From NCBI GenBank assembly GCA_002786495.1, contig PCSZ01000050.1, positions 16,390 to 55,283 of the forward strand: a DNA stretch of 38,894 bases, written 5' to 3'. The translations under genes were made by a program, and so were the position numbers. The stretch is from Candidatus Uhrbacteria bacterium CG22_combo_CG10-13_8_21_14_all_47_17 (GTDB lineage: Bacteria > Patescibacteriota > Patescibacteriia > 2-12-FULL-60-25). The notes under the pieces were generated by a model, which searched no databases, was not told the DNA's origin, and saw only the letters and a program-made list of their open reading frames with translations. This document shows positions 2,102 through 24,604 of this stretch, piece after piece (the stretch's first letter is position 1; every line of letters starts with the position of its first letter).

Positions 2102-4174
2102 TTATTCTAAGTGATTGGTCGCGTCTCTAAACTCGCGATACATGGGCCAGGTTTCTTCATGAACTGGCTCTTTTGTTTCAAGTAGGGCCTGTGCTTCTTC
2201 ACATGCGGCAGCCATAAGATCAATATCTGAAAATCTTGCGGCGCGAAAACCCAGCCAGCCGGTTTGCGATGTTCCAGAAAGTTCCCCTGCTCCGCGCATG
2301 CGAAGATCGGCTTCCGCAAGACGGAAACCATCTTGTGTTGCTTCAAGCAATTTTAATCGCTTCAGCGCATGTTCATCGCCCTGTGTAATCAAGAAACAAG
2401 AACTTGCCTTTGTAGATCTTCCAACGCGGCCACGAAGTTGGTGAAGTTGCGCCAGTCCAAAACGCTCGGCTCCTTCAATAATCATGACAGTCGCATCGGG
2501 AACATCAACACCAACTTCTATAACCGTTGTTGAAACCAGCACAGGCGTTTTACCGGATATAAAATCCTTTAGAGCCTCTTCTTTTTCTTCTTTTTTCATT
2601 CTGCCATGTAAAAGGCCGACGGTGATCCCCTCGAAATCTGTTTTTTGCAATCGCTTACATTCATCGGTCACCGCGCGAAAGCCAAGAACATCCGATGGAT
2701 CAATAAGCGGGCAAACCACAAAAACACGCTCATCTCGTTCAACGGCTTTTTTGGCGTATACAAATGCTTTTTCTTGATCCTTTTCTAAAAGAACTTGTGT
2801 TTTTATAGGTAAACGTCCCGCGGGCTTTTCTTTCAACGTCGAAACATGCAAATCGCCGAAAATCGTAAGAGCGAGTGATCGCGGAATAGGTGTTGCCGTC
2901 ATGGAAAGTAAATGCGGCGTTTTTTTGTCCGCACGTAAATCACGAATCAGTCCTTCCCGCTGTTGCACGCCAAAACGATGCTGTTCATCAATAATCGCGA
3001 GCGCAAGATCTTTCGGAAGTCGTCCGGGTTGAAGGAGGGCATGCGTACCGACCAAAACAATATTTCCCTGTTCGATGCAAGAAGTGAGTTGGCTTTCACT
3101 CAAATCTTCTTCGGTGTGACCATCAAAAAGACGTTTTGTTGTTCTTGTGACAAGAAGAACCGGAATATGCCAGTGCTGAAAGAGCCGCCGAAATGTATCC
3201 GCGTGTTGTTTTGCAAGAACTTCCGTTGGAGCAATCATGGCGGCGGATTGACCTACGCGCTTAATAATGGCGGACAAAAGTGCGGCGACAACGGTCTTTC
3301 CCGATCCAACATCTCCCTGTAGAAGGCGAAGCATTGGATGTTCTTCCTGCATATCTTTCATGGCGGCCCAGGCAGCCTTTCGTTGATCATCCGTCAATTC
3401 AAAAGGAAGTTCTTTTACAAAAGATTTTACGAAATCAATATCCGCCTCAATACGCGGCGCTCCAAGAACATTCGCTTCTTTTCGCGTTCGCCCAAGATTT
3501 AGCTGAAGCATCAAGAGTTCATCAAATGCGAGCCGGCGTCTCCCCTGCTCAATCGCTTCATGCGTTTGCGGAACATGTAATGAACGAATCGCTTCTTCAA
3601 AAGCGGGAAGTTTGTGGCGCACGAGCATGTTCGGAGAGAATGGATCCTTCGGCCACACAAGCTGATCAATAGCGCTTTGAATAAGTCTTCGATAGGTCTT
3701 TTGAACCAAGCTTCCGGAGAGTCCATATACCGGCGTTATTTTCGCAGCGGCAAGCGTTGTAGAATCCGCTGCTTCAAGAAGCGGGCTTTGCATTTGCTTG
3801 CCATAGGTCGGATGCGTTTTTATTTTTCCGGAAAGATAAATCTCTTGATCAAGTTGAATATCATCCAAAATCCAAGGTTGATTAAAAAAGTTTGCGCTCA
3901 TCGTTCCTGTTTCATCTTGGATCTTCACCCGAACAATAACAAAACGTTTCCGAAAGCTCGGAAGCTTTCGACATTCGACTACTTTTCCCTTCAAAGTAAC
4001 AACATCCCCATTTTGGCAGTCCCTTATCGTGCAGATCCGAGAGAAATCGTCATAACGTCTTGGAATCGTTAAAAAAAGGTCGCCAATTGTTTCTATTCCA
4101 AGCGTTCGCCAGGCTTTTCTGACGGAAGCGGTAGCCCCCTTGATAAAGGTTGCCGGTTCCTCCCATTTCAACAT
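2102..4174 (-). CDS. recG: ATP-dependent DNA helicase RecG
   Basis: 690 aa; wedge/OB region, LLQGDVGSGKTVVA, DEQHRFGVQQREGL, QLRGRVGR helicase motifs. Confidence 0.97.
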   Translation of the reverse strand: MLKWEEPATFIKGATASVRKAWRTLGIETIGDLFLTIPRRYDDFSRICTIRDCQNGDVVTLKGKVVECRKLPSFRKRFVIVRVKIQDETGTMSANFFNQPWILDDIQLDQEIYLSGKIKTHPTYGKQMQSPLLEAADSTTLAAAKITPVYGLSGSLVQKTYRRLIQSAIDQLVWPKDPFSPNMLVRHKLPAFEEAIRSLHVPQTHEAIEQGRRRLAFDELLMLQLNLGRTRKEANVLGAPRIEADIDFVKSFVKELPFELTDDQRKAAWAAMKDMQEEHPMLRLLQGDVGSGKTVVAALLSAIIKRVGQSAAMIAPTEVLAKQHADTFRRLFQHWHIPVLLVTRTTKRLFDGHTEEDLSESQLTSCIEQGNIVLVGTHALLQPGRLPKDLALAIIDEQHRFGVQQREGLIRDLRADKKTPHLLSMTATPIPRSLALTIFGDLHVSTLKEKPAGRLPIKTQVLLEKDQEKAFVYAKKAVERDERVFVVCPLIDPSDVLGFRAVTDECKRLQKTDFEGITVGLLHGRMKKEEKEEALKDFISGKTPVLVSTTVIEVGVDVPDATVMIIEGAERFGLAQLHQLRGRVGRSTKASSCFLITQGDEHALKRLKLLEATQDGFRLAEADLRMRGAGELSGTSQTGWLGFRAARFSDIDLMAAACEEAQALLETKEPVHEETWPMYREFRDATNHLE

Positions 4175-4219
4175 AAGCCTATCCTATGCAGATAAACGCA
4201 CTTCGTCGAGGTTTTGTGG

Positions 4220-4225
4220 TATACT
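4220..4225 (+). promoter_or_regulatory. -10 element TATACT, 8 nt before ATG of the 4234 gene
   Basis: gtggTATACTagccttatATG; predicted start site within ~2 nt of the ATG. Confidence 0.5.
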
Positions 4226-4233
4226 AGCCTTAT

Positions 4234-4743
4234 ATGCAGACGTTCTCGCCCGATGTGCGGGAGGCCATCATTCAAAGTCAGGATGCTTTCGTATGGGAGG
4301 CTCCAAATTTTGAAAGGCGCTTTCGCGGATCGCAATGGTATTTCATGATGGCCGTTGTGGCGGTATTTTTAATCGCCTATGCGGTATGGACGGCTAATTT
4401 TCTCTTTGCCTTCATCATTCTCTTGTCCGCTATTTTGCTTCTTCTTGTAGGAAATCAGGAACCGCGATCCGTTCTCGTTCAAATCGGAGAAAACGGCATT
4501 GTCTACAATGGAAAACTACATCTCTACCAAGATATTCAGAATTTCGCTATTGCCTATGAACCGCCTTTGGCAAAAGTGCTGTACTTAGAACTGCGTAGTG
4601 CGCTCGCTCCGAGGCTCACGATTCAACTGGAAGACGAAGATCCTCTCCCTTTGCGGGCCTTTTTACGGGAATATATTGCAGAGGATTTAGACTTGCAGGG
4701 CGAGCATTTCTCTGATACGATGGCGCGGCTGTTAAAACTGTAG
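4234..4743 (+). CDS. Hypothetical protein with two transmembrane segments
   Basis: 169 aa; hydrophobic stretches WYFMMAVVAVFLIAYAVW and FLFAFIILLSAILLLLV. Confidence 0.75.
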   Translation: MQTFSPDVREAIIQSQDAFVWEAPNFERRFRGSQWYFMMAVVAVFLIAYAVWTANFLFAFIILLSAILLLLVGNQEPRSVLVQIGENGIVYNGKLHLYQDIQNFAIAYEPPLAKVLYLELRSALAPRLTIQLEDEDPLPLRAFLREYIAEDLDLQGEHFSDTMARLLKL

Positions 4744-4764
4744 AAAAGCTTCAAAATCGGATAC

Positions 4765-4841
4765 GCAGCCGTAGCTCAGCTGGATAGAGCGCTTCCCTGC
4801 GGAGGAAGAGGTCAGACGTTCGAATCGTCTCGGCTGCACCA
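4765..4841 (+). tRNA. tRNA-Arg (anticodon GCG), CCA encoded
   Basis: Acceptor GCAGCCG/CGGCTGC, anticodon arm CTTCC-CTGCGGA-GGAAG, T-arm AGACG-TTCGAAT-CGTCT, ACCA end. Confidence 0.95.
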
Positions 4842-4842
4842 T

Positions 4843-4875
4843 AAAAAACACCTCGATTTTATCGAGGTGTTTTTT
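4843..4875. terminator. Bidirectional intrinsic terminator between tRNA-Arg and bcp
   Basis: AAAAAACACCTCGAT-TTT-ATCGAGGTGTTTTTT. Confidence 0.85.
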
Positions 4876-5348
4876 TATTTTGTTTGAAGCGTTTTCAAAT
4901 CTCCCAAGACTTCTTCCGCATGCTGTGCCGGTTTCACCTTCTCATAGATCTTCACGATCTTCCCTTTTGGATCTATGAGAAAACTTTCGCGTGAGATTCC
5001 CATGTACTCGCGTCCCATAAACTTCTTTTTTCCCCAGACGCCATAGGCTTCGAGCGTTTCCTTTTCTTCATCGGAAAGAAGTGTGAATGGAAGATCGTAT
5101 TTCTCAGAAAACTTTTCATGCTTTTTCACCGGATCCGCGCTCATGCCAAAAACCGTAATACCGAGTTTTTTGAAGGCAGGATAATTGTCCCGAATGGTGC
5201 AAGCTTCAATCGTGCACCCGGGTGTGTCGTCTTTTGGATAGAAATACAAAAGAGTCCATTTCCCCTTCTGGTCTTTCAAACTATGCATCTTTCCTTTCTG
5301 ATCCGGCAAGTTGAATTCCAGAGCTTTGTCGCCAATAGTGAGTTTCAT
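4875..5348 (-). CDS. bcp: Thioredoxin-dependent peroxiredoxin, Bcp type
   Basis: DKALEFNLPDQKGK...YFYPKDDTPGCTIEACTIRDNY. Confidence 0.95.
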   Translation of the reverse strand: MKLTIGDKALEFNLPDQKGKMHSLKDQKGKWTLLYFYPKDDTPGCTIEACTIRDNYPAFKKLGITVFGMSADPVKKHEKFSEKYDLPFTLLSDEEKETLEAYGVWGKKKFMGREYMGISRESFLIDPKGKIVKIYEKVKPAQHAEEVLGDLKTLQTK

Positions 5349-5418
5349 AGAAAGAGGATACCTTAAAAAACGCTTTCTCGCTTTAAGAAGCCGAATTTTT
5401 TTAAAGAACAGTGTTGCC

Positions 5419-5649
5419 TTATGTTAGAAGATCTTCAACGCTGCAGTTAAGGACATGCGAAAGTCCAATAAGTGTTTTTGCGGTTGGATTCTTATTTGCG
5501 CCGGATTCCAACTTTACAATCGTATTATAATTCACTTTCGCCTTCCGTGAGAGCTGATCGCGCGTTAATTCCATGTCTTCACGTCTGGTTTGAACATTTT
5601 TCGCTATCTTGGAAAGGGCGTATTTTTTCTTTGATGATTTTGATGTCAT
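5419..5649 (-). CDS. XRE-family helix-turn-helix regulator
   Basis: 76 aa; ELTRDQLSRKAKVNYNTIVKLESGANKNPTAKTLIGLSHVLNCSVEDLL is a Cro/CI HTH. Confidence 0.88.
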   Translation of the reverse strand: MTSKSSKKKYALSKIAKNVQTRREDMELTRDQLSRKAKVNYNTIVKLESGANKNPTAKTLIGLSHVLNCSVEDLLT

Positions 5650-5668
5650 AGATAGGTGGGTTTGAGAA

Positions 5669-5710
5669 ATATCGAGCTGATATCGTATTATCTCGCTTTC
5701 TGAACGTCAA
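5669..5710 (-). promoter_or_regulatory. Promoter of the XRE gene with overlapping inverted repeat
   Basis: Minus strand TTGACG-N17-TACGAT; inverted repeat ATATC-gagct-GATAT at 5669-5683 overlaps the -10/start region. Confidence 0.5.
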
Positions 5711-5746
5711 GCTGTTGATAAATGATGAATACATCGGAAAAGAGCT

Positions 5747-6607
5747 TTATTTATTAAAAAATCTCTCGCAGGGATTTGCTGTTGGCAAATATGCGAGAGA
5801 TGAGGTTTCGGGAAGCGGTGCTAGGTTCGTACCGTTCCGTAAATGCGGTTGACCTCCTCGTCCAGCTGAATGTTTGTGAGGAGTTTTTCGGTTTCGAAGG
5901 CTTGAATCACTTCGGGAAGGAATTTGGTTTTTTACCTCATGCCTCCAGGAATCTCGTTCAGCATTGCTGAGCGTGCGAGACTCAAGATCAGTAATCGTTG
6001 GTTGCAGCGTCTCGCGTGTCCATCGCTCGATATCGAAGAAGCTTTTCATGGCTTGATTGTTGAGACGAAGAAATTCCTCTTTGGTAAACATCCTCCGAGT
6101 AATTTCATCCATAGCCTCTTCGAGCTCGAGAAGCACGACCGGTGGCATACCGCGCTCGGTGGCAAGTTCAACTACGGTCGCAATCCAGCGCCAGTATTCG
6201 TCAGAAGGATCCCAGCCGAATCGAACGATCGTCCGCATCATCTTGAAAACGGTTTCGAATCGTGCGTTCCAGATGGCCTTGAAGTTTTCCAGATCCTTGC
6301 CCTCGGGCTTGTGGCCCACAAGCTTCGTTACTTGCTCGAGGACAAGCGGAAGATATCGGACAAGATCCCCTTCTGAGAGCAAGGGCCCGTTCCGCTCGCC
6401 ATTTTTGAGACGACGAGCAAGGAGTGCAGAGATCCACTCATGAAAGGTTTCGATGATTGGGTTGTTTTCCAGCTCCTTGTCGAGCTCATAGCCAAGCGCT
6501 TGCTGGAGGCGTGCGTGCAATTTCCGTTCTTTCGCGTAGTATATTCTGAACCGCGCGGCAAACAGAGCCTGAAGCTCACAGAGGCTTAAGTTCTTTTTAT
6601 CGAACAT
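5747..6607 (-). CDS. Hypothetical protein; last ~62 residues probably frameshifted (corrected end 5821)
   Basis: 286 aa as called. Removing one A from the A6 run at 5928-5933 gives ...EVKTKFLPEVIQAFETEKLLTNIQLDEEVNRIYGTVRT* just before the terminator. Confidence 0.65.
   Translation of the reverse strand: MFDKKNLSLCELQALFAARFRIYYAKERKLHARLQQALGYELDKELENNPIIETFHEWISALLARRLKNGERNGPLLSEGDLVRYLPLVLEQVTKLVGHKPEGKDLENFKAIWNARFETVFKMMRTIVRFGWDPSDEYWRWIATVVELATERGMPPVVLLELEEAMDEITRRMFTKEEFLRLNNQAMKSFFDIERWTRETLQPTITDLESRTLSNAERDSWRHEVKNQIPSRSDSSLRNRKTPHKHSAGRGGQPHLRNGTNLAPLPETSSLAYLPTANPCERFFNK
5756..5801 (-). terminator. Intrinsic terminator downstream of the 286 aa ORF's probable true end
   Basis: Minus strand ATCTCTCGCA-TATTTGCCAACAGCAAATCCC-TGCGAGAGATTTTTT; inner ATTTGC/GCAAAT stem. 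Confidence 0.75.
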
Positions 6608-6754
6608 CCTGCCCTTCTTTCACCTGTTGTCGAAGTACAAAACTCCTACAAAATAACTAGCATTTTTCAGATAAGAGGTCAATAAAAATACAAGCATAGG
6701 AAAAATGTCGTAATCAAGCTATAAATCTAAAATAAGAGTGATGCTATAGACAAT

Positions 6755-7321
6755 ATGGAGAAGCAAATCCAAAAACAGAATACACAAAAGAACATCTCAA
6801 CTCACTTAATGACAAGCGTAGCAGTAATTGCTTTTCTCGGGGTTGGTTGTACGGTTCCCGCGGAGAACGGTCTGCGGCCGCAATTAACGCAACTCGAGCA
6901 CGATCAGATGTCATTCACGGCTACGGTGGAACGCGGAGATTCGCATGTCACGATCACGGTCCAAAGGACTGGCCCTCGCGCGTCCGACTTTATCCGCGAT
7001 CCTGAGATCGACAGCCCATACGAGTCAGACGCCGTCGTTCGTAACCGATACGACTTCCCCTTCCTCCGAAGCTTTGGCGGCGACGCGCCGTCCGGCATGC
7101 TGGAGGGTTCGGAGTCAACAGATCCCCCGAGGAATATCAACCAGCAACATCAGCTGGAAGACCTTCAGCTTGTTGTGGACGCTGCAGATATGTTGCGTGA
7201 CGATGCGGAAATCGGAGAGAGCTTTCGATGGGAGCTACGAGAAGTTCGGAGTATGGCGGCGGGCGCGCTCGAGCATGCCAATGACGGTCTGAACGGCCTC
7301 ATCCATCCCAAGGTCGACTAA
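6755..7321 (+). CDS. Hypothetical exported or lipoprotein-like protein
   Basis: 188 aa; N-terminal hydrophobic segment MTSVAVIAFLGVGC (imperfect lipobox). Confidence 0.55.
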   Translation: MEKQIQKQNTQKNISTHLMTSVAVIAFLGVGCTVPAENGLRPQLTQLEHDQMSFTATVERGDSHVTITVQRTGPRASDFIRDPEIDSPYESDAVVRNRYDFPFLRSFGGDAPSGMLEGSESTDPPRNINQQHQLEDLQLVVDAADMLRDDAEIGESFRWELREVRSMAAGALEHANDGLNGLIHPKVD

Positions 7322-7528
7322 CTGGTCTCATTTAATTTTCAATAATCTCTCATTTAAAACTTAAATAAGAAAAACCCGACGGAATCTCATCGAATTTCTT
7401 CTGGTGGTGTCCGTTTTAAAAATATCTGAACGGAGCTAGTTGGGCTTGGTGAGCGACCTCTTCCTCGCTCGCCTCGAACCGAAACTGAGAGGACGAATCC
7501 AAGTTTTTCTTTGGCGGCACTTAAGAAC

Positions 7529-7681
7529 CTAACCTTTTTTGATATCCGCCCAGAGAGACAACACACCTAAGGCTAAGAAAAGTGTCGCTTCCAACCAGTT
7601 CTGTTTTTGAAGAGCTTCAATCAAGGCAATTCCGAAAAATATTATAAATACCGCGACGTTTGTGAATTTTGGAGTTTTCAT
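7529..7681 (-). CDS. Small membrane protein, 50 aa (absent from ORF track)
   Basis: MKTPKFTNVAVFIIFFGIALIEALQKQNWLEATLFLALGVLSLWADIKKG; two hydrophobic segments. Confidence 0.5.
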   Translation of the reverse strand: MKTPKFTNVAVFIIFFGIALIEALQKQNWLEATLFLALGVLSLWADIKKG

Positions 7682-7691
7682 AAATTATAGA

Positions 7692-7865
7692 TTAACAATT
7701 CTTTTTCTTCCTCCACAAAGCGAATGCGATAATCGCCCCTGAAACAACGGACGAGAAAAGAATTTGTGACAAATTATACGGTACGCTCAAAACCCAATAT
7801 CCTATCGATCCAATGACGAAAATGATTATAAACTCAAGAAGAAAATACTGTAGAAATTTTTTCAT
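7692..7865 (-). CDS. Small membrane protein, 57 aa (absent from ORF track)
   Basis: MKKFLQYFLLEFIIIFVIGSIGYWVLSVPYNLSQILFSSVVSGAIIAFALWRKKKNC; two hydrophobic segments; TATACT 6 nt upstream of ATG. Confidence 0.55.
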   Translation of the reverse strand: MKKFLQYFLLEFIIIFVIGSIGYWVLSVPYNLSQILFSSVVSGAIIAFALWRKKKNC

Positions 7866-7967
7866 ATTATCAGTATAACACCGCCTTGATCACGGCCTCA
7901 AGTCGTCCGGAAACCTTTATTCCTACACGCTATGGCCCTGTGTTTTGTATAATCAGTTCAACCATAC

Positions 7968-8008
7968 AAAAAAGCCGCAGTTGTCGTGAAACAGACTGCA
8001 GCTTTTTT
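7968..8008. terminator. Bidirectional intrinsic terminator
   Basis: AAAAAAGC-c-GCAGT ... ACTGC-a-GCTTTTTT. Confidence 0.7.
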
Positions 8009-8039
8009 GGTGGCGGAGAGAGAAAGGGTTTTGGCATTA

Positions 8040-8629
8040 CTACTTTTTGTAAGTCACCGAACCGCCGCCAGCCTTAATTAATTGGAGCATACGACTCAAT
8101 TCGCTATGTGCCGGTGTGATAGTCAACTTATCCTGTAATGGAATGAGCATTTCTTCCATATTCATTATCTTTATATCACAGTCGGTCAAATTGCTGGAAA
8201 AGAGTTTACTGTTTTCCCATGGTGGTTTTTCCCCTTTGAATTTAGTCACCATTAAATAGAAAGTAAAGTTTTCTGCACCTGTCAGTTCTTTTACTTTTGC
8301 TTTTCAAGCTTGCGACCAGTTCTTATCCATGACTTCTCTAAAAAGTTTCCAAGCCTCTTTGTTGGCCATTTGCGGTTCGGCGTTTTTTGCAGAGCCTTCA
8401 GGGTACCAGGGATATCCAACCCGCCCTGCCAGCTCTTGCAGCTCGCTACAGCAACCCTTGCTCGGTCCCTCGCCTTCTTGAGCGGATTGTAGGCAAGAAT
8501 GTCTATGTCAGAATGGACAGCGTATTTTGGCTCTTTGATTGCAGGGCGGTATTTAATATTGTGCTGTGTGAAATATCCCTGGCTTCTGAAATAGTCTTCG
8601 ACCACCTGCTCTAAGATGTCGTTTGTCAT
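8040..8629 (-). pseudogene. Degraded endonuclease-like gene (restriction-endonuclease-like fold suspected)
   Basis: ORFs 8291-8629 and 8040-8252 join into one protein if the A6 run at 8383-8388 gains one A, with a TGA left at 8304-8306: ...GTLKALQKNAEPQMANKEAWKLFREVMDKNWSQA(TGA)KAKVKELTGAENFTFYLMVTKFKGEK... SDIDILAYNP...VASCKSW resembles a PD-(D/E)XK core. Confidence 0.7.
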
Positions 8630-8696
8630 AGTTTGAATTCTCTATTATTTTATTATAGTCTTTCAATTTAACTCGCCAAAGCAACTTCATAATCGT

Positions 8697-9541
8697 CTAC
8701 CCACCGTCACTATTCTGCTCCAACTCTTTAATGGTTTTCCCGTCCTGCGCCTTCCATTCGATTAAACCGTTCCTTGATGTTCCACGAACGATTGCAGCCG
8801 CTGCACTCGGAGACGAAAAAAGATAGTCTTGGGCGAAGGAATAATGACGATCATCGAAAGACGACAGAATGCCGCTTTCGATCATCTGCGTGCGCTTTTT
8901 GAAGTAGTTGTGAACTTCAAAAGCCGGTGCGTGCTTTTTTCTGGCGAGGCTTCCCTTGAGCACTAGCAAACCGCTTTCACCGTAAACACCTTGTGCATTC
9001 GCGTCAGGACCAACGCAGGTCACTAATACGCCCGATTGTTTCGCTTCAGCTGTAACTTCATGACTAGCACCAAGCAACGAGTAGCCCAAACTTAAAAGGA
9101 TATCAGAGGCGCGGTCAACAAATTTTTCCATGACATCCTGATCCTCAGTGGAGATCGTTGGGCTCTTTGGTGATGTACCGTTTTCTAAAACTACTAATCC
9201 GTCGGATGCGAGCCGTTTCGTAAAAGCATGCTCCAAGTATTTCACCTCGGTTTTTGTAAGCTTTGGCGATGTGAATGCGATCAAATCGCTCCAATTCGGT
9301 TTTGTAATCGCATGATGAGCAAGTCTCTGCCCGAGTGAGTCTGTTTCGCCTACGTAGACATGGTTCTCATCGCCTAGCAAAAAATACACAGCTGGCATTT
9401 CTGCTTCGGGTAGTTCTTTTAGTTTTTTAGCCCCGCTCTTGGCGTGATGATCGCCTTTCCGTTCCAGTTCGAAAGCTCGGCGGTTTTAACGCCATAAGGA
9501 GTGCCGTCGAGCAAGACGACTTTGAGAGATTTTGATCGCAT
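8697..9541 (-). CDS. GIY-YIG nuclease family protein with DUF4357-like C-terminus; split by a frameshift
   Basis: 5' part MRSKSLKVVLLDGTPYGVKTAELSNWNGKAIITPRAGLKN* (start 9541) joins after a -1 shift at 9422-9428 to LKELPEAEMPAVYFLLGDENHVYVGET...; C-terminal YLFSSPSAAAAIVRGTSRNGLIEWK is DUF4357-like. Confidence 0.75.
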
Positions 9542-9581
9542 ATTTTGCCTATAGCTTAGCTCCTTCTCTCGTCTATGACAA

Positions 9582-9601
9582 AACCGCCCTTTCGGGCGGT
9601 T
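9582..9601 (-). terminator. Probable terminator after tRNA-Ser(GCT)
   Basis: AACCGCCC-GAAA-GGGCGGTT followed by TTG on the minus strand. Confidence 0.55.
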
Positions 9602-9663
9602 AATTGTAATGCACAGATCGCAAACACCTTGGGGCACTCGGGTCTGCCGATACTTAATTGTCA

Positions 9664-9754
9664 TGGCGGAGAGGGAGGGATTCGAACCCTCGCGGGCTTT
9701 TACACCCCTAGGAGATTAGCAATCTCCCCCCTTCAGCCTCTTGGGTACCTCTCC
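9664..9754 (-). tRNA. tRNA-Ser (anticodon GCT), CCA encoded
   Basis: GGAGAGG...GGAGA-TTGCTAA-TCTCC...long variable arm...GAGGG-TTCGAAT-CCCTC-CCTCTCC-G-CCA. Confidence 0.95.
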
Positions 9755-9775
9755 TTGAATCCGTAAGGCGGCTGT

Positions 9776-9804
9776 ATCTTACAAATAAGATGTGATTTGA
9801 GCAA
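9776..9804 (-). promoter_or_regulatory. Promoter for tRNA-Ser(GCT)
   Basis: Minus strand TTGCTC-N17-TAAGAT. Confidence 0.5.
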
Positions 9805-9809
9805 GGCTC

Positions 9810-9838
9810 TCGACAGAATCCTTTTTTTCGCATATTCT
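9810..9838 (+). promoter_or_regulatory. Promoter for tRNA-Ser(UGA)
   Basis: TCGACA-N17-TATTCT, 24 nt before the tRNA. Confidence 0.5.
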
Positions 9839-9862
9839 CAGGCATACAAGAATAGACCATGT

Positions 9863-9952
<90 letters not shown>

Positions 9953-9958
9953 TATATA

Positions 9959-9982
9959 AAAACCGCTCGAAAGAGCGGTTTT
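9959..9982 (+). terminator. Terminator after tRNA-Ser(UGA)
   Basis: AAAACCGCTC-GAAA-GAGCGGTTTT. Confidence 0.75.
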
Positions 9983-10173
9983 GTTTTCCAGGAATATTCG
10001 AGCTTCGTCCAACAGACGCTGTTAGGAAAAGTTCTTATCGACAGACTCACGATAAGGAGAAAAAACGTATACAAAATACCCAAGATAAACAAAAAAATAC
10101 TTGACAAAAATCCTGGATTTGTTACAGCTAAGCCTCAAATCGGTTCCTTTACAGAGAGAAGAAGGAGACAAGG

Positions 10174-10896
10174 ATGTCAGGACTCGCAGGGTTGGCTAGA
10201 CATGAGCAGTACTTCAACGAGGAAGTCAGCTCCGACTTTCGCTACGCGAAAAGGTACAAAATCAAGCCCATCGAACATCAGGTAACTATTCTGCAACAGA
10301 TCTTTCCGGAGATCAGACAGGCGACATTCGATGGAGGCATCGCGAAGTAGCGACTTCCTTTCGGTGCCGAGGGATGGTTCGCCGTTCCGAGGTACGAAGT
10401 GCTCGCACCGGCCTACGGTGCGGCTGTCGAAAAGGTGCTCGAGACGCTCTCGCGCAAGCGTGATTTTTCCAATGATCGTGAGGGGAAGTTCGGTTCGGCG
10501 CATCTCAGACAGCGTGTCGAGGCTGTGGAAGGCTTCCAGGAGCTCGCTCATGAGCAGAAGGGCCACGACATTCTGATTGTCGCCGCTCAGCTCGGTCTGC
10601 GGCACTCCGGACGAAGCGTCCGTCGTGCGCGTGAAGTTTTCAAGCATAATGAGTTCGGCCTTGGGACATTCGCCGCCGGCTGCATGCTCTTGGTCCATCC
10701 GAAGCGTTTCGTTCGTCGGAGGAAGCTGAACCTGGACTGCTCGGGTGACGAGTTCTCCGAGCTGGGTGATGAAGTCTTCTCATGCGCTCCCCTCTTCTTC
10801 CTCGAAAAAGGTGTCCTTCACTTCAGCGCCAGCCGAAGGGAGTTCGCCAGTTCATATCATGCCCCTGCTTCCGCGCTGCTTCTCAGCGACGACTGA
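10174..10896 (+). pseudogene. 240-codon gene interrupted by one in-frame TAG (10348-10350); hypothetical, possibly a CPR-restricted family
   Basis: RBS aagaaggagacaaggATG. MSGLAGLARHEQYFNEEVSSDFRYAKRYKIKPIEHQVTILQQIFPEIRQATFDGGIAK(TAG)RLPFGAEGWFAVPRYEVLAPAYG... continues in the same frame to TGA; strong terminator follows. Confidence 0.75.
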
Positions 10897-10904
10897 AGCT
10901 CTCC

Positions 10905-10944
10905 AAGAGGCCATCCGCTATGACAAGCGGATGGCCTCTTTTTT
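10905..10944 (+). terminator. Intrinsic terminator of the amber-interrupted gene
   Basis: AAGAGGCCATCCGCT-ATGACA-AGCGGATGGCCTCTTTTTT, 15-bp stem. Confidence 0.9.
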
Positions 10945-10968
10945 GATATTTCTTTTTTGTGGTATTCC

Positions 10969-11601
10969 TTAGCCGATAAACTCAACAACGTCCTCAAAAC
11001 TGCGGCGAACTTTTTTGCGCGTAGCCCCCAGGTCCTCTCCTCGAAAACCGACCGGTAACATTGAAACGGTGGCAAGATTCTTTTCAGAAAGGCCAAGTAT
11101 TTCGTTTACGGCTGTCGCGTCAAAGCCCTCCATCGGACAAGCGTCAATCTTCAAAAGCGCGGCTGTTTCCACCATCATTCCAAGAGCAATATAGGTTTGT
11201 TTTGCGCTCCAGAGTGTGTATTGTTCCGGAGAAAAACGTCCTATTGCTCCGGAAATATTTTGCTTCAAGCTATTTAAATCTTCCAAAGAAGCACCTTCAA
11301 TCGTTGAAGCGCGTTGTACAAACTCATCAACAAGCGCTGAAGCGTCGGTGCGTCGCGTAAGAATAATGAGATGCGAAGCATCTGTTACTTTTGATTGATC
11401 ATAGCTTACCTTACGAATCTTCTCGCGTAGTTCAGGATTCGTAACAACAAGAAATTTCCATGGTTCAATACCGAATGAACTTGGTGCGAGACGAGCGCTT
11501 TCTAAAATCGTTTTCAAATCATCGTCAGAAACCTTTTTTTGCGTATCAAATTCTTTTGTCGCATAGCGCCAATTCAGCGCCTCAGTAATGGTGTTTTTCA
11601 T
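10969..11601 (-). CDS. Nitroreductase family NAD(P)H-dependent oxidoreductase
   Basis: ALNWRYATKEFD...ARLAPSSFGIEPWKFLVV...SAKQTYIALGMMVETAALLKIDACPMEGFD. Confidence 0.92.
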   Translation of the reverse strand: MKNTITEALNWRYATKEFDTQKKVSDDDLKTILESARLAPSSFGIEPWKFLVVTNPELREKIRKVSYDQSKVTDASHLIILTRRTDASALVDEFVQRASTIEGASLEDLNSLKQNISGAIGRFSPEQYTLWSAKQTYIALGMMVETAALLKIDACPMEGFDATAVNEILGLSEKNLATVSMLPVGFRGEDLGATRKKVRRSFEDVVEFIG

Positions 11602-11654
11602 AGAAATAGTGTGCCTAAAAATCCTATAGGACGCAAGAAGTAACAGAAAATAGA

Positions 11655-11685
11655 AAACCGCCTCTCCAGAGTGGGAGGGCGGTTT
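11655..11685. terminator. Intrinsic terminator downstream of the 46 aa gene
   Basis: AAACCGCCTCTCC-agagt-GGGAGGGCGGTTT stem (with wobbles), T-tract on the minus strand. Confidence 0.65.
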
Positions 11686-11713
11686 CGGTTAGGGGTTTTT
11701 GGGAATGTTCGTT

Positions 11714-11854
11714 CTACGAGCGCTTCTTGGTGGAGTCCTTCTTTCCGCTGTGCTGCTTGCAGGTCTTGCGACCCTTCTTGCTGTGACGCCGCGTGCCGAA
11801 GCAGTAGGGACATCCGGAATCGCGCGCGTCGAAGTTGTCGGTATTCTTCGCCAT
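11714..11854 (-). CDS. 46 aa basic CX2C...CX2H mini-protein (absent from ORF track)
   Basis: MAKNTDNFDARDSGCPYCFGTRRHSKKGRKTCKQHSGKKDSTKKRS*; CGAGG 5 nt before ATG, consensus-like promoter upstream, terminator downstream. Confidence 0.65.
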   Translation of the reverse strand: MAKNTDNFDARDSGCPYCFGTRRHSKKGRKTCKQHSGKKDSTKKRS

Positions 11855-11922
11855 GTAAACCTCGTAAAGGTGCTTGCAACAACGTGTTGCGAGGTTCTCC
11901 GTATAAAAACTGAGAACGTTGT

Positions 11923-11951
11923 AAGATAGCAGAAAAAGAGGCTTTTGTCAA
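11923..11951 (-). promoter_or_regulatory. Promoter of the 46 aa gene
   Basis: Minus strand TTGACA-N17-TATCTT. Confidence 0.65.
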
Positions 11952-11977
11952 GCCATTTCCCATCCAAAGGCTTAGAA

Positions 11978-12607
11978 TCACCCCTTCGCAAATACCAATA
12001 AATCAACGTTTTCCGCACCGGCTTCTATAAAAAGATTGGCGCAAGCCTGAGCCGTTGCGCCCGTTGTACAAACATCATCAACAAGAAGTACGCGCTTTCC
12101 CGATAAATCTTGAATACAGGAAAACGCGTTTTTTATATTCCCCTCTCGAGCTTCATTATCCGGTAGAGTTGCATTTGGAAGCGCCGATGCACTGCGTAGT
12201 AAAAGAGCGTCCGCTTGAAGTCCATGTCCGAGCGCGTTTGCAACAAGTTCCGCTAAACGTTTTCCGTGATCTATTCCCCTATCTCGCGCACGATCCGGAT
12301 CTCCGGGGACCCAGGTCACAATATCTAAATCCGTCGGATGATTGAGCATGCGTGATAGAAGTCGTTGAAAAACCGGCTCCAAACAAGTTGCCGCACGATA
12401 TTTGTAGGATTTGATTAAACGCTGAATGCGTCGATCTTTATACGCGCTCAGCGCCCAAGCGCGTCGAAAGGGAGAAAGTGTTAAAGCATCTCCGGGAGCA
12501 ATGTCTGTAAAACAGGATTCACAAAGCCAAGAATCCGCGGAAGCACATTCAATACAGGTTGGAGGATAAATGGCATTCAATATTCGCTCCTGCGCTCGAG
12601 CGAACAT
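11978..12607 (-). CDS. comF: ComF family protein (phosphoribosyltransferase-like)
   Basis: CIECASADSWLCESC zinc-binding N-terminus, RVLLVDDVCTTGAT PRPP motif. Confidence 0.92.
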   Translation of the reverse strand: MFARAQERILNAIYPPTCIECASADSWLCESCFTDIAPGDALTLSPFRRAWALSAYKDRRIQRLIKSYKYRAATCLEPVFQRLLSRMLNHPTDLDIVTWVPGDPDRARDRGIDHGKRLAELVANALGHGLQADALLLRSASALPNATLPDNEAREGNIKNAFSCIQDLSGKRVLLVDDVCTTGATAQACANLFIEAGAENVDLLVFAKG

Positions 12608-16394: not shown

Positions 16395-17981
16395 CTAAAG
16401 TTGTAATTTACTGTTAAGCGCAACAATGGCACCCAGTTCTTCTGAGGTCGGTAAAGCAGTGGAGGGATCTTGCGCGCGTTTCTTTTCCACAAGCTCCGCA
16501 ACGGGAAGACCTTGCTTAAAACTTTCCGTTACAAGATTCAAATATTGCTGTTGCAAAGGAGAGCGACGCCAAGCCTGTATGCCCTCTGTCCAACCTTCGA
16601 AAGATTCCTTTTTTAGAAGGTCTAATTTTTGCAGAATAGTATTTGCCGCTTGATTTGGATCTTTAGACTGTCTACGGAATGCTTCGATAGTCATGGTTCC
16701 AAGTTCTTCACTTAATCCCGTGAGACGCAAAGGAGAGCGCACGTCTTGCATGCTTGTGCTTGGAGCCGATGTTACACCCCCCGCGGATTTTGCGGACGCC
16801 ATCATACTGCGAAGCTGCGCGGATAAATCATCGGAAGAACCGGTCTGCACTTTCTCGCGATACCATTCGGCATGTTCTTCGCTATCGCGTTGTTTTCGCG
16901 TAGCGATTTTCTGTTTTTGTTCATCAACTGTCTGTTGAATGCGTTGACGTTGAAAATCTTCAATCGCAACATGATGTGTTTTATACGCTTCTTCAATAAT
17001 CCCCGAAATGCGTTCCGCTTCTTCTGTAAGCAGCCCAAGGCCACCAACTTTTTCATCGCGCAGAAGCGCCTCTTTTGTCTGAGCGGAATTACGAACATCG
17101 CGCAGTCGCGTAGAAATGAGATTGTGCAGACGTTTCAGAAGATATCCGTCTCCTTTCAGTTCCCCAATGCGGGTAATGGCGGCATCGATAGCTTCTTCGA
17201 GTGCTGTATTATTACTCCGACGAACCCGCATGCCAGCAACATCGAAATCTGCTCCTCCGGATTGTTCCCCTGTTTTTTTCACAGCCGTTTCCTCCGCGCC
17301 TGCTTGCGAGGCGCTCTCTGCATCCAGTAGATATTCTTGATACCATCTCGCATAGTCTTCTTCGGACATGACCTGTGTTGAAACGAGGAAATCCGTCATG
17401 GTTTGAAGATAGCGTTCCGCTTGCGAGTTTTCGAGTCCAAGGCCGCCGCCTTCTTGTGATCGCTGTAAAATTTCAAGAACCTGCGCGTCCGTTCTCACGC
17501 CTTTTATATAAGAAACAAGAATTTCTCGAAGTTTTCGAATCGTTTCCTCTGAAAGAATGCTGATTTTTGCTTCCGAAGCGATTCGTCTCACGGCTGCACC
17601 ATAAGAAACCGGCCGCAGTGACACCCTGTGAATGCTTTGTATTAAGGAGAGAGACGTTCCGAGCTCTTGTAAGCGCACCTCAACATCCCAAGGAATGAGA
17701 TCCGCTAGTGGAAGAACAATATACAAAAGCAATTCGCGTTCAACTTCTTCCGGCTTGCGGTCCCCTGCTACTTTTTTAAGCTCCTCTTCAAATGTCTGTA
17801 TGTCCTGCTTTTGAGCAAGGAGTTCCCATACAATATCCATGACACGTTCCCAAGCATCATTATCATAAGCAAGATTTGTCTCTGCCGTGTCTTCATTAAC
17901 ACCCGAAGACGGATCAAGAAGATAGTCCTGTGCCGCAGGAGGCAACTGGTTGAAAAATTCAAGCCACTTTTCACGCGTCAT
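16395..17981 (-). CDS. Hypothetical helical protein in T4SS-like operon
   Basis: 528 aa, charged and helix-rich, no recognised motif; starts 4 nt after the VirB6-like ORF stop. Confidence 0.75.
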   Translation of the reverse strand: MTREKWLEFFNQLPPAAQDYLLDPSSGVNEDTAETNLAYDNDAWERVMDIVWELLAQKQDIQTFEEELKKVAGDRKPEEVERELLLYIVLPLADLIPWDVEVRLQELGTSLSLIQSIHRVSLRPVSYGAAVRRIASEAKISILSEETIRKLREILVSYIKGVRTDAQVLEILQRSQEGGGLGLENSQAERYLQTMTDFLVSTQVMSEEDYARWYQEYLLDAESASQAGAEETAVKKTGEQSGGADFDVAGMRVRRSNNTALEEAIDAAITRIGELKGDGYLLKRLHNLISTRLRDVRNSAQTKEALLRDEKVGGLGLLTEEAERISGIIEEAYKTHHVAIEDFQRQRIQQTVDEQKQKIATRKQRDSEEHAEWYREKVQTGSSDDLSAQLRSMMASAKSAGGVTSAPSTSMQDVRSPLRLTGLSEELGTMTIEAFRRQSKDPNQAANTILQKLDLLKKESFEGWTEGIQAWRRSPLQQQYLNLVTESFKQGLPVAELVEKKRAQDPSTALPTSEELGAIVALNSKLQL

Positions 17982-17984
17982 AGA

Positions 17985-20897
17985 CTATGCCTTTCTGATC
18001 ATGGTGCGTACCGCTGCTGGAAGTTCAGATTCTTTTCGTTTCTTTTCCGCTTCACTTGAAAGCGTGTCAATCATACCGATCAAGGCCTTGTCTGTCGGAG
18101 TTTGTTCTGCCGGGGCTTTGTTTACTTTAATGTGGTTCACGCGATCCATGGCAACTTCAAGCGCTTTCAGAACCTTCGGCCTTAGATCTTTTGCGAGCTT
18201 ATCGTAATTTGAAATAATTTCTGCTCCACCATTTTGTGCGAACGAAGACAGAATTTGCGTTTGGAAATGAGCGTCAACGCCTGACTGATCCAAGTTCGAA
18301 AATACGCGTGCAACAGTCGACATCTTCTTGTTGAACTGTGACGAATCGCCCTGCTTTATGGCTTCTGCTGCATCTCCGCTATCAACGCCAACAACTTGTT
18401 TCGCAAAATCATCAAGCGGAACTCGATCCAACTTTGCATTTACAAGATCCGGAAGATCGCTAAGCGAACCGCCACTGTCGACAAAGTTCTTCATCTGGAG
18501 TGCATCAACCGTTCCTCCTGAGGCGCGTTGTTCTCCAGCTGTCTTCAAACTCTCAAACGAGTTTCGCTGCGTATCATTACGGAAGCGGCTTCCGCGCCCA
18601 ATCTCTTTCTGAATAGCATTCCCCTGAGCATCTTTTCCGGTTGTGATTTTCGTAGCCTTAAGCGTAAAAGCTTGCATGCTTCCGTCTTTTGGATTTTTGC
18701 GATGCTCCACATTTTTAAAAGTATCCGCGGCTTGGCTCGGCGATGACAAGATAAGCTGTTCATGTGCCTCCATGCCATTAAGAAGTGTATTGTTACCTGC
18801 TTGTTTTACGCTGCGTTTCGCACGATCCCAAGCCGCGTCATCTTTTAGTTCCATGGCGCCGGTGGCTTTATTTTCTTCCCAACCATTGTTTTCCATGAGA
18901 CCGCTCAAAACTTCTCCGTTATTGGCGTTAAAATCATCCACGCCTTTAATGGCGTCTGGATCAAGATATGAAAGTTTCTTAATAGCCTCCTCACGCTGAG
19001 CTCCCGGAGCGGCTAACTGCGGATTTGAGGTGAGAAGCTGATCAAGACGTTCGATTTCCTGCTTGTCGCCCCGATTCTTTGCCAGATCATATTGCTTTTG
19101 CTGGAAATCGCGCTGTTGAGCAAGAGCGTCTTGATTTGCGAGAATACCGCTCGACGCCTTTGCATCTTCATCGTTAAGACCTTGTTTTTTAAGTTCCGGA
19201 ACATGATCTGATTTATGTGTTTTTGCGATTTCCTTACGCACGTCCTCCGAGGCGGCTAAACCGGTGATCATTTCAGAAGCACGCCGCTCTCCAAGCGTTC
19301 GAAGCGGACCAGTGTCAGAGTTGTAAGTCTTCGCCACTTGCTGCGCGAGTTCCGCTCCTCCGTATTTGCGGAGTTCGCTAAATTGTTCCGCTGCTGCCTT
19401 CCCCTGCGTCTCTGCTTCGCGTTTACGCAAAGTCGCTCCTCGTACAAGAGTAGGTCGAGCAAAACGTCCTGCAGCACCAGCGGCGGCGCCAATAACGCCT
19501 CCTCTTTGTTGAGCTTGAGTGATTTTCTGAAGCGCACCACGAGAAAGGGTTCCGGTAACATCAAGCCGTCGATCAACCGCCCCGGCACCGGCACGACCAG
19601 CTCGATAGGCTCCATATCCGGCAGCACCAGCTGCAAGAAAAGGAGATGTGGCGACCGCTTTTCCGGCGCTCTTTGCCAGTCCGGCGATCTTACCTCCAAA
19701 AGCTCCTAATGTACTCGAAATGGCTCCCGCTTGAGAAACGGCAGCTTCCAAACCCATAAGCAAGATAGCCGTAGCAACAATAAAGGATGCAATTTGATCA
19801 CTTGTAAAGAAAGCCGTTAGTCCTTGAGGAACGCTTGATGTACCAAAGTTCATTGCCGGCGCAAGGCCTCCGCTTGCCGCGCTTGATTGAACCGTTGCCA
19901 ATGTCAACCAAAGAAAGAAGGCTAAAATCGGTCCTCCGGCAAGCAAGGATGTAAGCCGCGTCCAATACTGATCAGCAAAAACAGCTAAGGATTTTTTAAT
20001 GCGACCCGGAAGAGCAGATGCAAAAAGAGCAAATGGGCTGAAAATCAAAGCGAGCCAAAGACCAACGATGCGGAAAGCAAGATAGGCCGTCAGAATAATC
20101 ATGAGGCCGAGAATGATGGCCATCATGAAGTTAGCTAACATATAAGATACAATGATCTGCACCAGTGACATGCTTGATGCCTGCCCGCCTTCCGCTAAAT
20201 GCGTTAATTCCGTCAGTCGGAATGCATTAATGAAGTTTCCTGCGGCTGCAGCTTGAAACGCGTTCACAAAGGTCAGCATGACGACCTGGGAAAAGTCGAT
20301 CAATAACTGAATAAGCGTTTTTGAAAAGTTAATCAAAACCGCCATTAAAAGGAGCTTCGGAAGAACGTTTTTATAATTAAAACTACTGGAATCGTATCCA
20401 ATGATAGTTGCAAATGCCGATACCAAAAGAACGACAATAAAAAACATGTTCACGAGATCACGTATAATCTTCCATCCCGTCTCAACGATGGTTGCATGCG
20501 CAAAACCATTGTAGCTCGCAAAAGCAACCAAGACCTGCGTCACAATTGTGAACACAATCGTCATGAACCACAACGTAATCTGAAGAATGGTTACAATGGA
20601 TTGAAAAATAATACACTTCGCATAGTCGCCAATGCTACTAGACGAAAAGCTAACATTGTTACAAACGATGTTAGTCGTTGGCGCTGTTGCTGCAGGTGCG
20701 GCCGCGGACGGAGTTGCGCCTGCAGGCAGAGTTGTGGGGGTGGACGGGACCGGCGCCGACTCGGGGGGAGTAAACTGAGCCAGCGTTGGAAGTGGCGCGA
20801 GAAAACTAATGCCTAAAAACAATAAAAAAATCACGGCAAAGCTTTTCTTCAGCCATGGACGATGAAGGACCGGACGTGTGTCTTTAGGTTCAGACAT
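17985..20897 (-). CDS. VirB6/TrbL-like polytopic membrane protein with long soluble C-terminus
   Basis: Start MSEPKDTRP at 20897 preferred over 21029; multiple TM segments then ~500 residues of charged sequence. Confidence 0.85.
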   Translation of the reverse strand: MSEPKDTRPVLHRPWLKKSFAVIFLLFLGISFLAPLPTLAQFTPPESAPVPSTPTTLPAGATPSAAAPAATAPTTNIVCNNVSFSSSSIGDYAKCIIFQSIVTILQITLWFMTIVFTIVTQVLVAFASYNGFAHATIVETGWKIIRDLVNMFFIVVLLVSAFATIIGYDSSSFNYKNVLPKLLLMAVLINFSKTLIQLLIDFSQVVMLTFVNAFQAAAAGNFINAFRLTELTHLAEGGQASSMSLVQIIVSYMLANFMMAIILGLMIILTAYLAFRIVGLWLALIFSPFALFASALPGRIKKSLAVFADQYWTRLTSLLAGGPILAFFLWLTLATVQSSAASGGLAPAMNFGTSSVPQGLTAFFTSDQIASFIVATAILLMGLEAAVSQAGAISSTLGAFGGKIAGLAKSAGKAVATSPFLAAGAAGYGAYRAGRAGAGAVDRRLDVTGTLSRGALQKITQAQQRGGVIGAAAGAAGRFARPTLVRGATLRKREAETQGKAAAEQFSELRKYGGAELAQQVAKTYNSDTGPLRTLGERRASEMITGLAASEDVRKEIAKTHKSDHVPELKKQGLNDEDAKASSGILANQDALAQQRDFQQKQYDLAKNRGDKQEIERLDQLLTSNPQLAAPGAQREEAIKKLSYLDPDAIKGVDDFNANNGEVLSGLMENNGWEENKATGAMELKDDAAWDRAKRSVKQAGNNTLLNGMEAHEQLILSSPSQAADTFKNVEHRKNPKDGSMQAFTLKATKITTGKDAQGNAIQKEIGRGSRFRNDTQRNSFESLKTAGEQRASGGTVDALQMKNFVDSGGSLSDLPDLVNAKLDRVPLDDFAKQVVGVDSGDAAEAIKQGDSSQFNKKMSTVARVFSNLDQSGVDAHFQTQILSSFAQNGGAEIISNYDKLAKDLRPKVLKALEVAMDRVNHIKVNKAPAEQTPTDKALIGMIDTLSSEAEKKRKESELPAAVRTMIRKA

Positions 20898-21056
20898 ACT
20901 TACGAAATTCAGTATACCACAAAATAAGGAAACGAACCTTTCCTTATTTTGAAAAAACATCCACAGGAAATCGGAAAATAAGCCTCCCCTTCTGCGATTG
21001 CGAAGTACGAAAAAAAATGCTAGAGTCACAACTGATTTGAGCCGATACCCGACCCC

Positions 21057-22520: not shown

Positions 22521-23991
22521 GCGAGAATCCTCCCTTCCGCGCGTAGCACTCATTGGAAGAACCAATGTTGGAAAGTCCACTCTCTGGAATCGCCTGACAG
22601 AACTCGGTCAAGCATTAGTCAGTGAAAAACCACATACGACGCGAGATAGAAAATACGGACCCGTCCTCTGGAAGGGGTCTCTTTTTGAAATCATTGATAC
22701 CGGCGGAATGGATACGGAGAAAGATGTTATTGGAGAAGGTATTAAGGCGCAGGCGGAAAATGCTATCCGTGATGCAGACATTGTTCTGTTTGTTGTTGAT
22801 ACAAGAACCGGTATTCTTCCGCAGGACTTGGAACTCGCTCAAAAAGTACGCAGCATTGCAAAACATGTTTGGCTTGTCGCGAACAAAGTGGACACGGCCA
22901 GAGTTCTTCCTCTCGCATTGGAAAAAGATTTTTTTAAGCTCGGTCTTGGAGAAGCCTATCCCGTCAGCGCGAACACGAGCTTGGGTATCGGCGATCTTCT
23001 TGACGCCATCCACGTAGAACTTGAGCGCATCGGAAAGCCTCCCGCTCCTTTGAATGAAAAGCATCCGCTCCGCATTGTTCTTATTGGACGTCCGAATGTT
23101 GGAAAGTCTTCCATTGTAAACTCTATGTTGGGAGAAGATCGCGTGATCGTTTCTCCAAAGGCACATACGACACGCGAACCGCAGGACACGCTCATTCAAT
23201 ACAAAGGTCACGATATTGTGATTGTTGATACCGCGGGAATGCGTCGCCGCGCCAAAGTGGAGAAGGGATTGGAAGAAGACGCGGTTGCGCGCAACCAAGC
23301 AGCTCTGAGACAGTCAGATATCGCTCTGCTTGTATTTGATGCAACGGAAGATCCGCGCGCACAGGATAAACGCCTTGCCGGTCTCGTTGAAGAAACAAAT
23401 AAAGGTGTTCTTCTTGTGGCGAATAAATGGGACCTTGTTAAAGACAAAAATACCGTAACCTCAAAACGCTACGAAGATACGCTTCGACGTTCCTTTCCTT
23501 TTATTACATGGGCGCCAATGATGTTCGTGAGCGCAAAAAAGGGACAGCGTACAACGAAGCTTCTTGATGAGGCGCTAAAAATCCAAGAAGAACGCATGCG
23601 CCACATTGATTACAATGCGGTGAACAGAGTTTTGAAGGCAACTATTCAAACGAAACGGCCGTTACAAAGTTATGGCCCAAAGTCGCCAAGAATCTACGAT
23701 GTGGCTCAACTCGGTCATGCGCCACCGACTTTTCTTATTACCGTTCATGGAGATAAACAAAATCTTCATCCAAACTGGTTGAAATTCTTCACAAAACGTC
23801 TTCGTGAAAAATTTGGATTTGAAGGAACGCCAATTAGTGTTCGTGTTCGCCATCTTCCTTCATCCAAATCAAATAGATCCAAAACGACCATGGGACCCGG
23901 AATGGAAGCCGTGGCCGGATCAGCAAAAGAAAAGAAACCTCGCGTTAACCAAACGCGCCGACGTCAGAAACAAGGCGGACGCAGATATTAA
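22510..23991 (+). CDS. der: Ribosome-associated double GTPase Der
   Basis: Two GTPase domains (GRTNVGKSTLWN and GRPNVGKSSIVN) plus KH-like C-terminus; overlaps the LCP gene end by 11 nt. Confidence 0.97.
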   Translation: MSIKRESSLPRVALIGRTNVGKSTLWNRLTELGQALVSEKPHTTRDRKYGPVLWKGSLFEIIDTGGMDTEKDVIGEGIKAQAENAIRDADIVLFVVDTRTGILPQDLELAQKVRSIAKHVWLVANKVDTARVLPLALEKDFFKLGLGEAYPVSANTSLGIGDLLDAIHVELERIGKPPAPLNEKHPLRIVLIGRPNVGKSSIVNSMLGEDRVIVSPKAHTTREPQDTLIQYKGHDIVIVDTAGMRRRAKVEKGLEEDAVARNQAALRQSDIALLVFDATEDPRAQDKRLAGLVEETNKGVLLVANKWDLVKDKNTVTSKRYEDTLRRSFPFITWAPMMFVSAKKGQRTTKLLDEALKIQEERMRHIDYNAVNRVLKATIQTKRPLQSYGPKSPRIYDVAQLGHAPPTFLITVHGDKQNLHPNWLKFFTKRLREKFGFEGTPISVRVRHLPSSKSNRSKTTMGPGMEAVAGSAKEKKPRVNQTRRRQKQGGRRY

Positions 23992-24034
23992 TATTGTCAT
24001 TCCCGCGGAGGCGGAAATCCAGTACGATACGTCT

Positions 24035-24604
24035 ATGAAACTCATTGTTGGCTTAGGTAATCCAGGTAAAAAACATGAAAACACACGCCACAATATTGGC
24101 TGGCGCGTCGTTGAGCATCTTTCCCTGCATCTTGACGCGGGAGAGCTTGTGAAGAATGAGAAATTTTCCGCAGCGATCAGCGAAGCAAAGCTTGGCGGAG
24201 AAAAGATTTTGTTTGCGGAGCCGCTTACATTTATGAACGCTTCAGGAAAAGCGGTGGCTGCATTGAAACATTTTTACAAGATTGAACTTGAAGATGTTCT
24301 CGTTGTTCACGATGAAATGGATTTTGCGGTCGGAAAATTTGCCTTTGCGAAAGATGGCGGCGATGCGGGTCATAACGGTATTCGCTCTATTATTGACGCG
24401 CTCGGTTCCGACGTTTTTGCGCGTTTGCGCGTTGGCATCGATAGACCAAAGCCGCCTTTAAAGAAAGAAGATTACGTTTTACAACCTTTTGATATGGAAG
24501 AAGTTCCTACAATGGAGCTTGTGAAGGAACGCACTTCCGAAGCGGCCTATGATTGGGCGAAACAAGGCTTGACAAAGGCCATGAATATGTGGAACGGGGT
24601 ATAG
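24035..24604 (+). CDS. pth: Peptidyl-tRNA hydrolase
   Basis: MKLIVGLGNPGKKHENTRHNIGW...FMNASGKAV...VVHDEMDFAVGKFAFAKDGGDAGHNGIRSI. ATG 24035 chosen. Confidence 0.96.
   Translation: MKLIVGLGNPGKKHENTRHNIGWRVVEHLSLHLDAGELVKNEKFSAAISEAKLGGEKILFAEPLTFMNASGKAVAALKHFYKIELEDVLVVHDEMDFAVGKFAFAKDGGDAGHNGIRSIIDALGSDVFARLRVGIDRPKPPLKKEDYVLQPFDMEEVPTMELVKERTSEAAYDWAKQGLTKAMNMWNGV

Follow-up and report, generated by a model that had tools for sequence, protein, structure and literature searches.

A stop-interrupted gene of a Candidatus Uhrbacteria genome: probably an orphan DGR target that was inactivated recently

The interrupted gene at 10174–10896 on the forward strand of the 38,894-nucleotide stretch of DNA analysed here (the window) is, with a probability of roughly 0.78, a recently inactivated orphan DGR target and most likely a young pseudogene, acquired horizontally and disabled by an ordinary nonsense mutation. 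In a diversity-generating retroelement (DGR), an error-prone reverse transcriptase (RT) copies a template RNA with changes at adenines, and the resulting cDNA replaces the variable region of a target gene. Translation of 10174–10896 gives one frame of 240 codons closed by TGA (10894–10896), with TAG at 10348–10350 (codon 59) as its sole interruption; the 5′ part (10174–10347) opens with ATG, has 58 codons before the TAG and matches the middle of full-length relatives, and the 3′ part (10351–10896) comprises 181 codons and the TGA and holds the conserved body of the family. The gene is followed by a hairpin on the same strand (10905–10940), a 15-bp perfect inverted repeat and a T run resembling an intrinsic terminator. 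The initial annotation had placed the start, the stop, the two sets of sense codons and a 15-bp terminator in just this way, and in describing an otherwise intact 240-codon gene it was right about the single split frame; the gene is not otherwise intact, as it lacks the N-terminal ∼60–100 residues that most relatives carry and has an eroded variable C-terminus.

Homology to relatives continues without a break across the TAG, which was read as a placeholder residue in homology searches. Of the 285 other genomes searched, 33 carry a homologue of the downstream half (34/286 with the window's own genome), at up to 53% identity and mostly in frames of 230–360 residues, and translation upstream within these frames reveals that in nearly all of them the same protein runs on past the position of the TAG. 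Conversely, tblastn of full-length relatives against the window recovers one frame, from ∼10150–10190 to 10881 and crossing the TAG, with identities of at most 47% and E-values down to 2e-65. The window sequence EEVSSDFRYAKRYK...GIAK[stop]RLPFGAEGWFAVPRYE aligns with EEVTSSYGYLSGYK...KLAEQPLPPNAEGWFAIPKWQ of one such relative (L002), and the column occupied by the TAG belongs to a linker at which the residues of relatives vary; none of the downstream-half matches contains an internal stop, and the TAG of the window copy is shared by no relative. Taking both halves as one query and inspecting codon 59 in homologues, as had been proposed, returned an unbroken protein with a varying residue and no stop, from which it follows that the two halves are one gene rather than a chance abutment. 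A natural end at codon 58 is ruled out, with relatives continuing and no homologue ending there; relative to its homologues the stop is premature, as in a nonsense pseudogene.

The identity of the family emerges from its relatives rather than from profile libraries. Of 28 family members none matches a Pfam model, NCBIfam and PHROGs return weak matches only, and no library names the family; a search of solved structures for relatives likewise gave weak matches only, without bearing on the question, and an AlphaFold2 model of one relative, considered for a C-type lectin fold, had a mean pLDDT of 38 and was too poor to use. The suggestion in the initial annotation of an uncharacterised family common in CPR genomes is borne out by this lack of Pfam matches and by the number of genomes that carry the family; the annotation missed its identity as a DGR target, the orphan status of the window copy and the further decay. 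A variable region was suspected from a C-terminus alternating regularly between fixed and free positions, and was then tested. At ten loci with an RT (L074, L076, L079, L084, L085, L091 and the IMG/VR contigs L098–L101), the C-terminal coding end of the target matches a second site with zero non-adenine mismatches over 60 nt and 7–16 changes at template adenines; control scans that used segments from the body of these genes gave 11–14 mismatches at best, with the exception of L091, which has two paralogous targets. The RT at each of the ten loci is a relative of the two encoded by the window's genome; bAvd homologues are additionally present in L079 and L098–L101. The family of these relatives is a DGR target family with a diversified C-terminus. 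Two of the contigs, L098 and L099 (IMGVR_UViG_3300024999_000712 and IMGVR_UViG_3300025012_001675), are 99.74% identical over a common 8,459 bp, and the 22 bases at which they differ (L098:3349–3492) all fall in the final 171 bases of the target; judged from the sequences, this is the footprint of recent diversification, a natural record of hypermutation.

By descent, through full-length homology, the window gene belongs to this CPR family of DGR target proteins, being 39–46% identical to four targets with a proven template/variable pair and colinear with them through the TAG. A CPR-restricted DGR clade whose targets have no recognisable domain has been described (Roux et al. 2021, PMC8144416), with which both the template/variable pairs of the family and its missing domains agree. 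The family is multicopy in some genomes, with four copies in one (G028: C29, C36, C55, C74) and three in another (G172: contigs C18, C20), only some of which adjoin an RT.

The window copy itself stands apart from any DGR machinery. The window contains no RT or Avd (one match, at chance level, E 0.75) and no template repeat for the gene, the best candidate having 12 mismatches in 60; an adenine-tolerant 55-nt pattern allowing up to 3 mismatches found only the gene itself in the whole genome, in a search that would miss a template more than 3 non-adenine changes away. By Pfam RVT_1 search the genome encodes only two RTs, both on other contigs, and their neighbourhoods hold no template for the interrupted gene; the genome's two DGRs are accordingly rejected as a source of diversification in trans, no template within 3 non-adenine changes having been found. 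Neither the matching template nor the cognate RT and Avd expected of a functional DGR target were found for the gene in an assembly of 95% completeness (890,978 bases, an 81-contig draft); the unassembled remainder could contain a template or an RT, which counts against the orphan reading.

The two RTs of the genome belong to DGR-like loci with candidate targets of their own. The first (L071, G000:C49:8000–18089) has an RT at 6047–7027 and a candidate target at 8020–8838, and the second (L072, G000:C56:1–12000) an RT at 3778–4824, bAvd at 4811–5158 and a candidate target at 5594–7435; both candidate targets have near-perfect adenine-only template matches, with one non-adenine mismatch each. 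BLASTP detects no resemblance between the C49 target and the window protein.

Decay is apparent at both ends of the window copy. Codon-by-codon alignment to the L074 template repeat places the eroded counterpart of the relatives' DGR variable region at 10774–10887, where the window retains 43 of 85 non-adenine positions against 60–62 of 85 in two relatives linked to an RT. Losses at non-adenine framework positions are not expected from template copying, so the framework has drifted as well. Expressed as framework columns, 6 of 11 are kept in the variable region, a low value that still falls inside the spread of intact distant relatives, compared with 53 of 64 in the conserved body. The N-terminal ∼60–100 residues of most relatives are absent, and no remnant of them was found upstream of 10174. 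Several RT-linked relatives have a CTTG/TTGA-rich hairpin 3′ of the stop, a putative retrohoming signal, in place of which the window copy has its ordinary terminator. Other copies of the family are broken too, L077 and L090 being frameshifted, with no RT in the stretch examined, and L087 lacking the N-terminal two thirds beside an RT, which counts in favour of decay. The well-conserved body, the single disabling change and the framework count of the variable region weigh against inactivation; any loss of function is at most recent, or incomplete.

The interrupted gene sits between tRNA-Ser(UGA) (9863–9952, plus strand), a landmark of a variable segment, and a phosphoribosyltransferase gene that is ComF-like by domain content. 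The surrounding block, RecG – DUF5673-like – tRNA-Arg – tRNA-Ser(GCU) – tRNA-Ser(UGA) – ComF-like, is recognisable, though rearranged, in eight genomes of the same family, and neither a DGR RT nor a target was seen at this place in any of them. L079 comes from a different family of the class; its corresponding neighbourhood contains a full DGR (RT, Avd, template and target) that begins next to the same tRNA-Ser(UGA). From RecG to the ComF-like gene (2102–12607 of the window), the content between genes is highly variable across the same-family genomes, and the block is likely to be an insertion hotspot. The two halves of the gene have GC contents of 50% and 59% against 47% for the window, and GC3 values of 0.64–0.66 against 0.36–0.61 in the window's major genes; in most loci the targets of relatives also exceed their surroundings in GC. 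Atypical composition and setting together fit gain at a hotspot better than inheritance, and the window copy was probably acquired horizontally in the variable segment beside tRNA-Ser(UGA). Insertion at tRNA genes as a family-wide rule is unsupported, few loci having a tRNA near the target; it holds for the window and L079.

A history consistent with these observations would begin with the horizontal arrival of an orphan target copy next to tRNA-Ser(UGA), without RT, Avd or template repeat. Once overwriting had ceased, the variable region would have drifted, the N-terminal part having been lost or never present, and a single nonsense substitution would have produced the TAG at codon 59; acquisition, decay and stop are the presumed order of events. 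Translation is predicted to end after 58 residues and to leave the variable domain unmade, which makes the gene most likely a young pseudogene.

An unlikely alternative, although the one that deserves most weight, is that the TAG is a consensus error or a strain polymorphism, in which case most cells would have a sense codon and encode a 240-residue family member whose diversification has ended. Only one base is at issue, both halves are well conserved, and the sequence comes from an 81-contig draft with one genome of the genus compared; the sequence itself has no sign of error, however, and constraint seems to be relaxed in any case, to judge by the missing N-terminal part and the erosion of the variable region. 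It is improbable that the downstream part is translated alone, as a shortened protein, from an internal GTG at 10399: a 165-codon ORF does begin there and the body is conserved, but the upstream part is in frame in nearly all relatives, the exceptions being damaged or truncated copies, a start at this GTG would forfeit the conserved AEGWFAIP motif, and by eye no strong ribosome-binding site precedes it.

The initial annotation had offered two options, a fresh nonsense mutation or site-specific readthrough, and had pointed to a suppressor tRNA(CUA) for the latter; no CUA anticodon is found among the 36 tRNA genes scanned, and RF1 is present above its curated cut-off, so that both a suppressor tRNA and RF1 loss are ruled out. 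Its statement that TAG terminates core genes holds: 8 of the 31 major ORFs of the window end in TAG, including peptidyl-tRNA hydrolase (23804–24604), where the TAG directly follows a complete Pfam domain (profile positions 1–183 of 183, ending at residue 264 of 266). These results give no support to recoding or to general suppression, and TAG is an ordinary stop in this genome. Site-specific readthrough to a full-length protein, for which the open frame and its conservation on either side of the TAG might speak, is accordingly very improbable, given in addition that no relative shares the stop; of the two options, the nonsense mutation stands. Very little probability likewise attaches to a domesticated, frozen variable protein that has lost its retroelement and is made in full-length form at a low level across the UAG. 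Elsewhere in the window, on the minus strand (16395–21029), two large genes of 1014 and 528 aa without Pfam matches lie in the same frame. Past the TAG that ends the first gene, this frame remains open for 529 codons, and the second gene's ATG comes one codon after that TAG; the arrangement could be tight coupling.

A stop-split 'hypothetical' family scattered across Patescibacteria is thereby identified as one of DGR targets, some of whose copies are orphaned or in decay. Surveys of RT-adjacent targets overlook such copies, and remote targets escape the search of the published survey, as its authors note (PMC8144416). In the variable segment of the conserved RecG–tRNA-Ser–ComF block, one relative has a full DGR, the window an orphan and the eight same-family genomes neither, a contrast through which gain and loss of these cassettes can be traced.

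Among known systems, the window gene resembles CPR DGR targets such as those described for DGR clade 2 (Roux et al. 2021, PMC8144416), a comparison made on the targets: it has full-length homology to the RT- and template-linked targets of the ten loci, the variable region lies at the C-terminus, and no domain is recognisable, as the paper reports for CPR targets; it differs from them in having no RT, Avd or template, an eroded variable region, no N-terminal part and a stop at codon 59. UAG recoding and readthrough genes share with it an in-frame UAG flanked by conserved coding sequence, whereas here there is no suppressor tRNA, RF1 is present, the stop is not conserved and UAG is an ordinary stop. 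Nonsense pseudogenes share with it a single in-frame stop at a position open in relatives, together with decay at both ends, although the body of the window gene is well conserved and a single change disables it.
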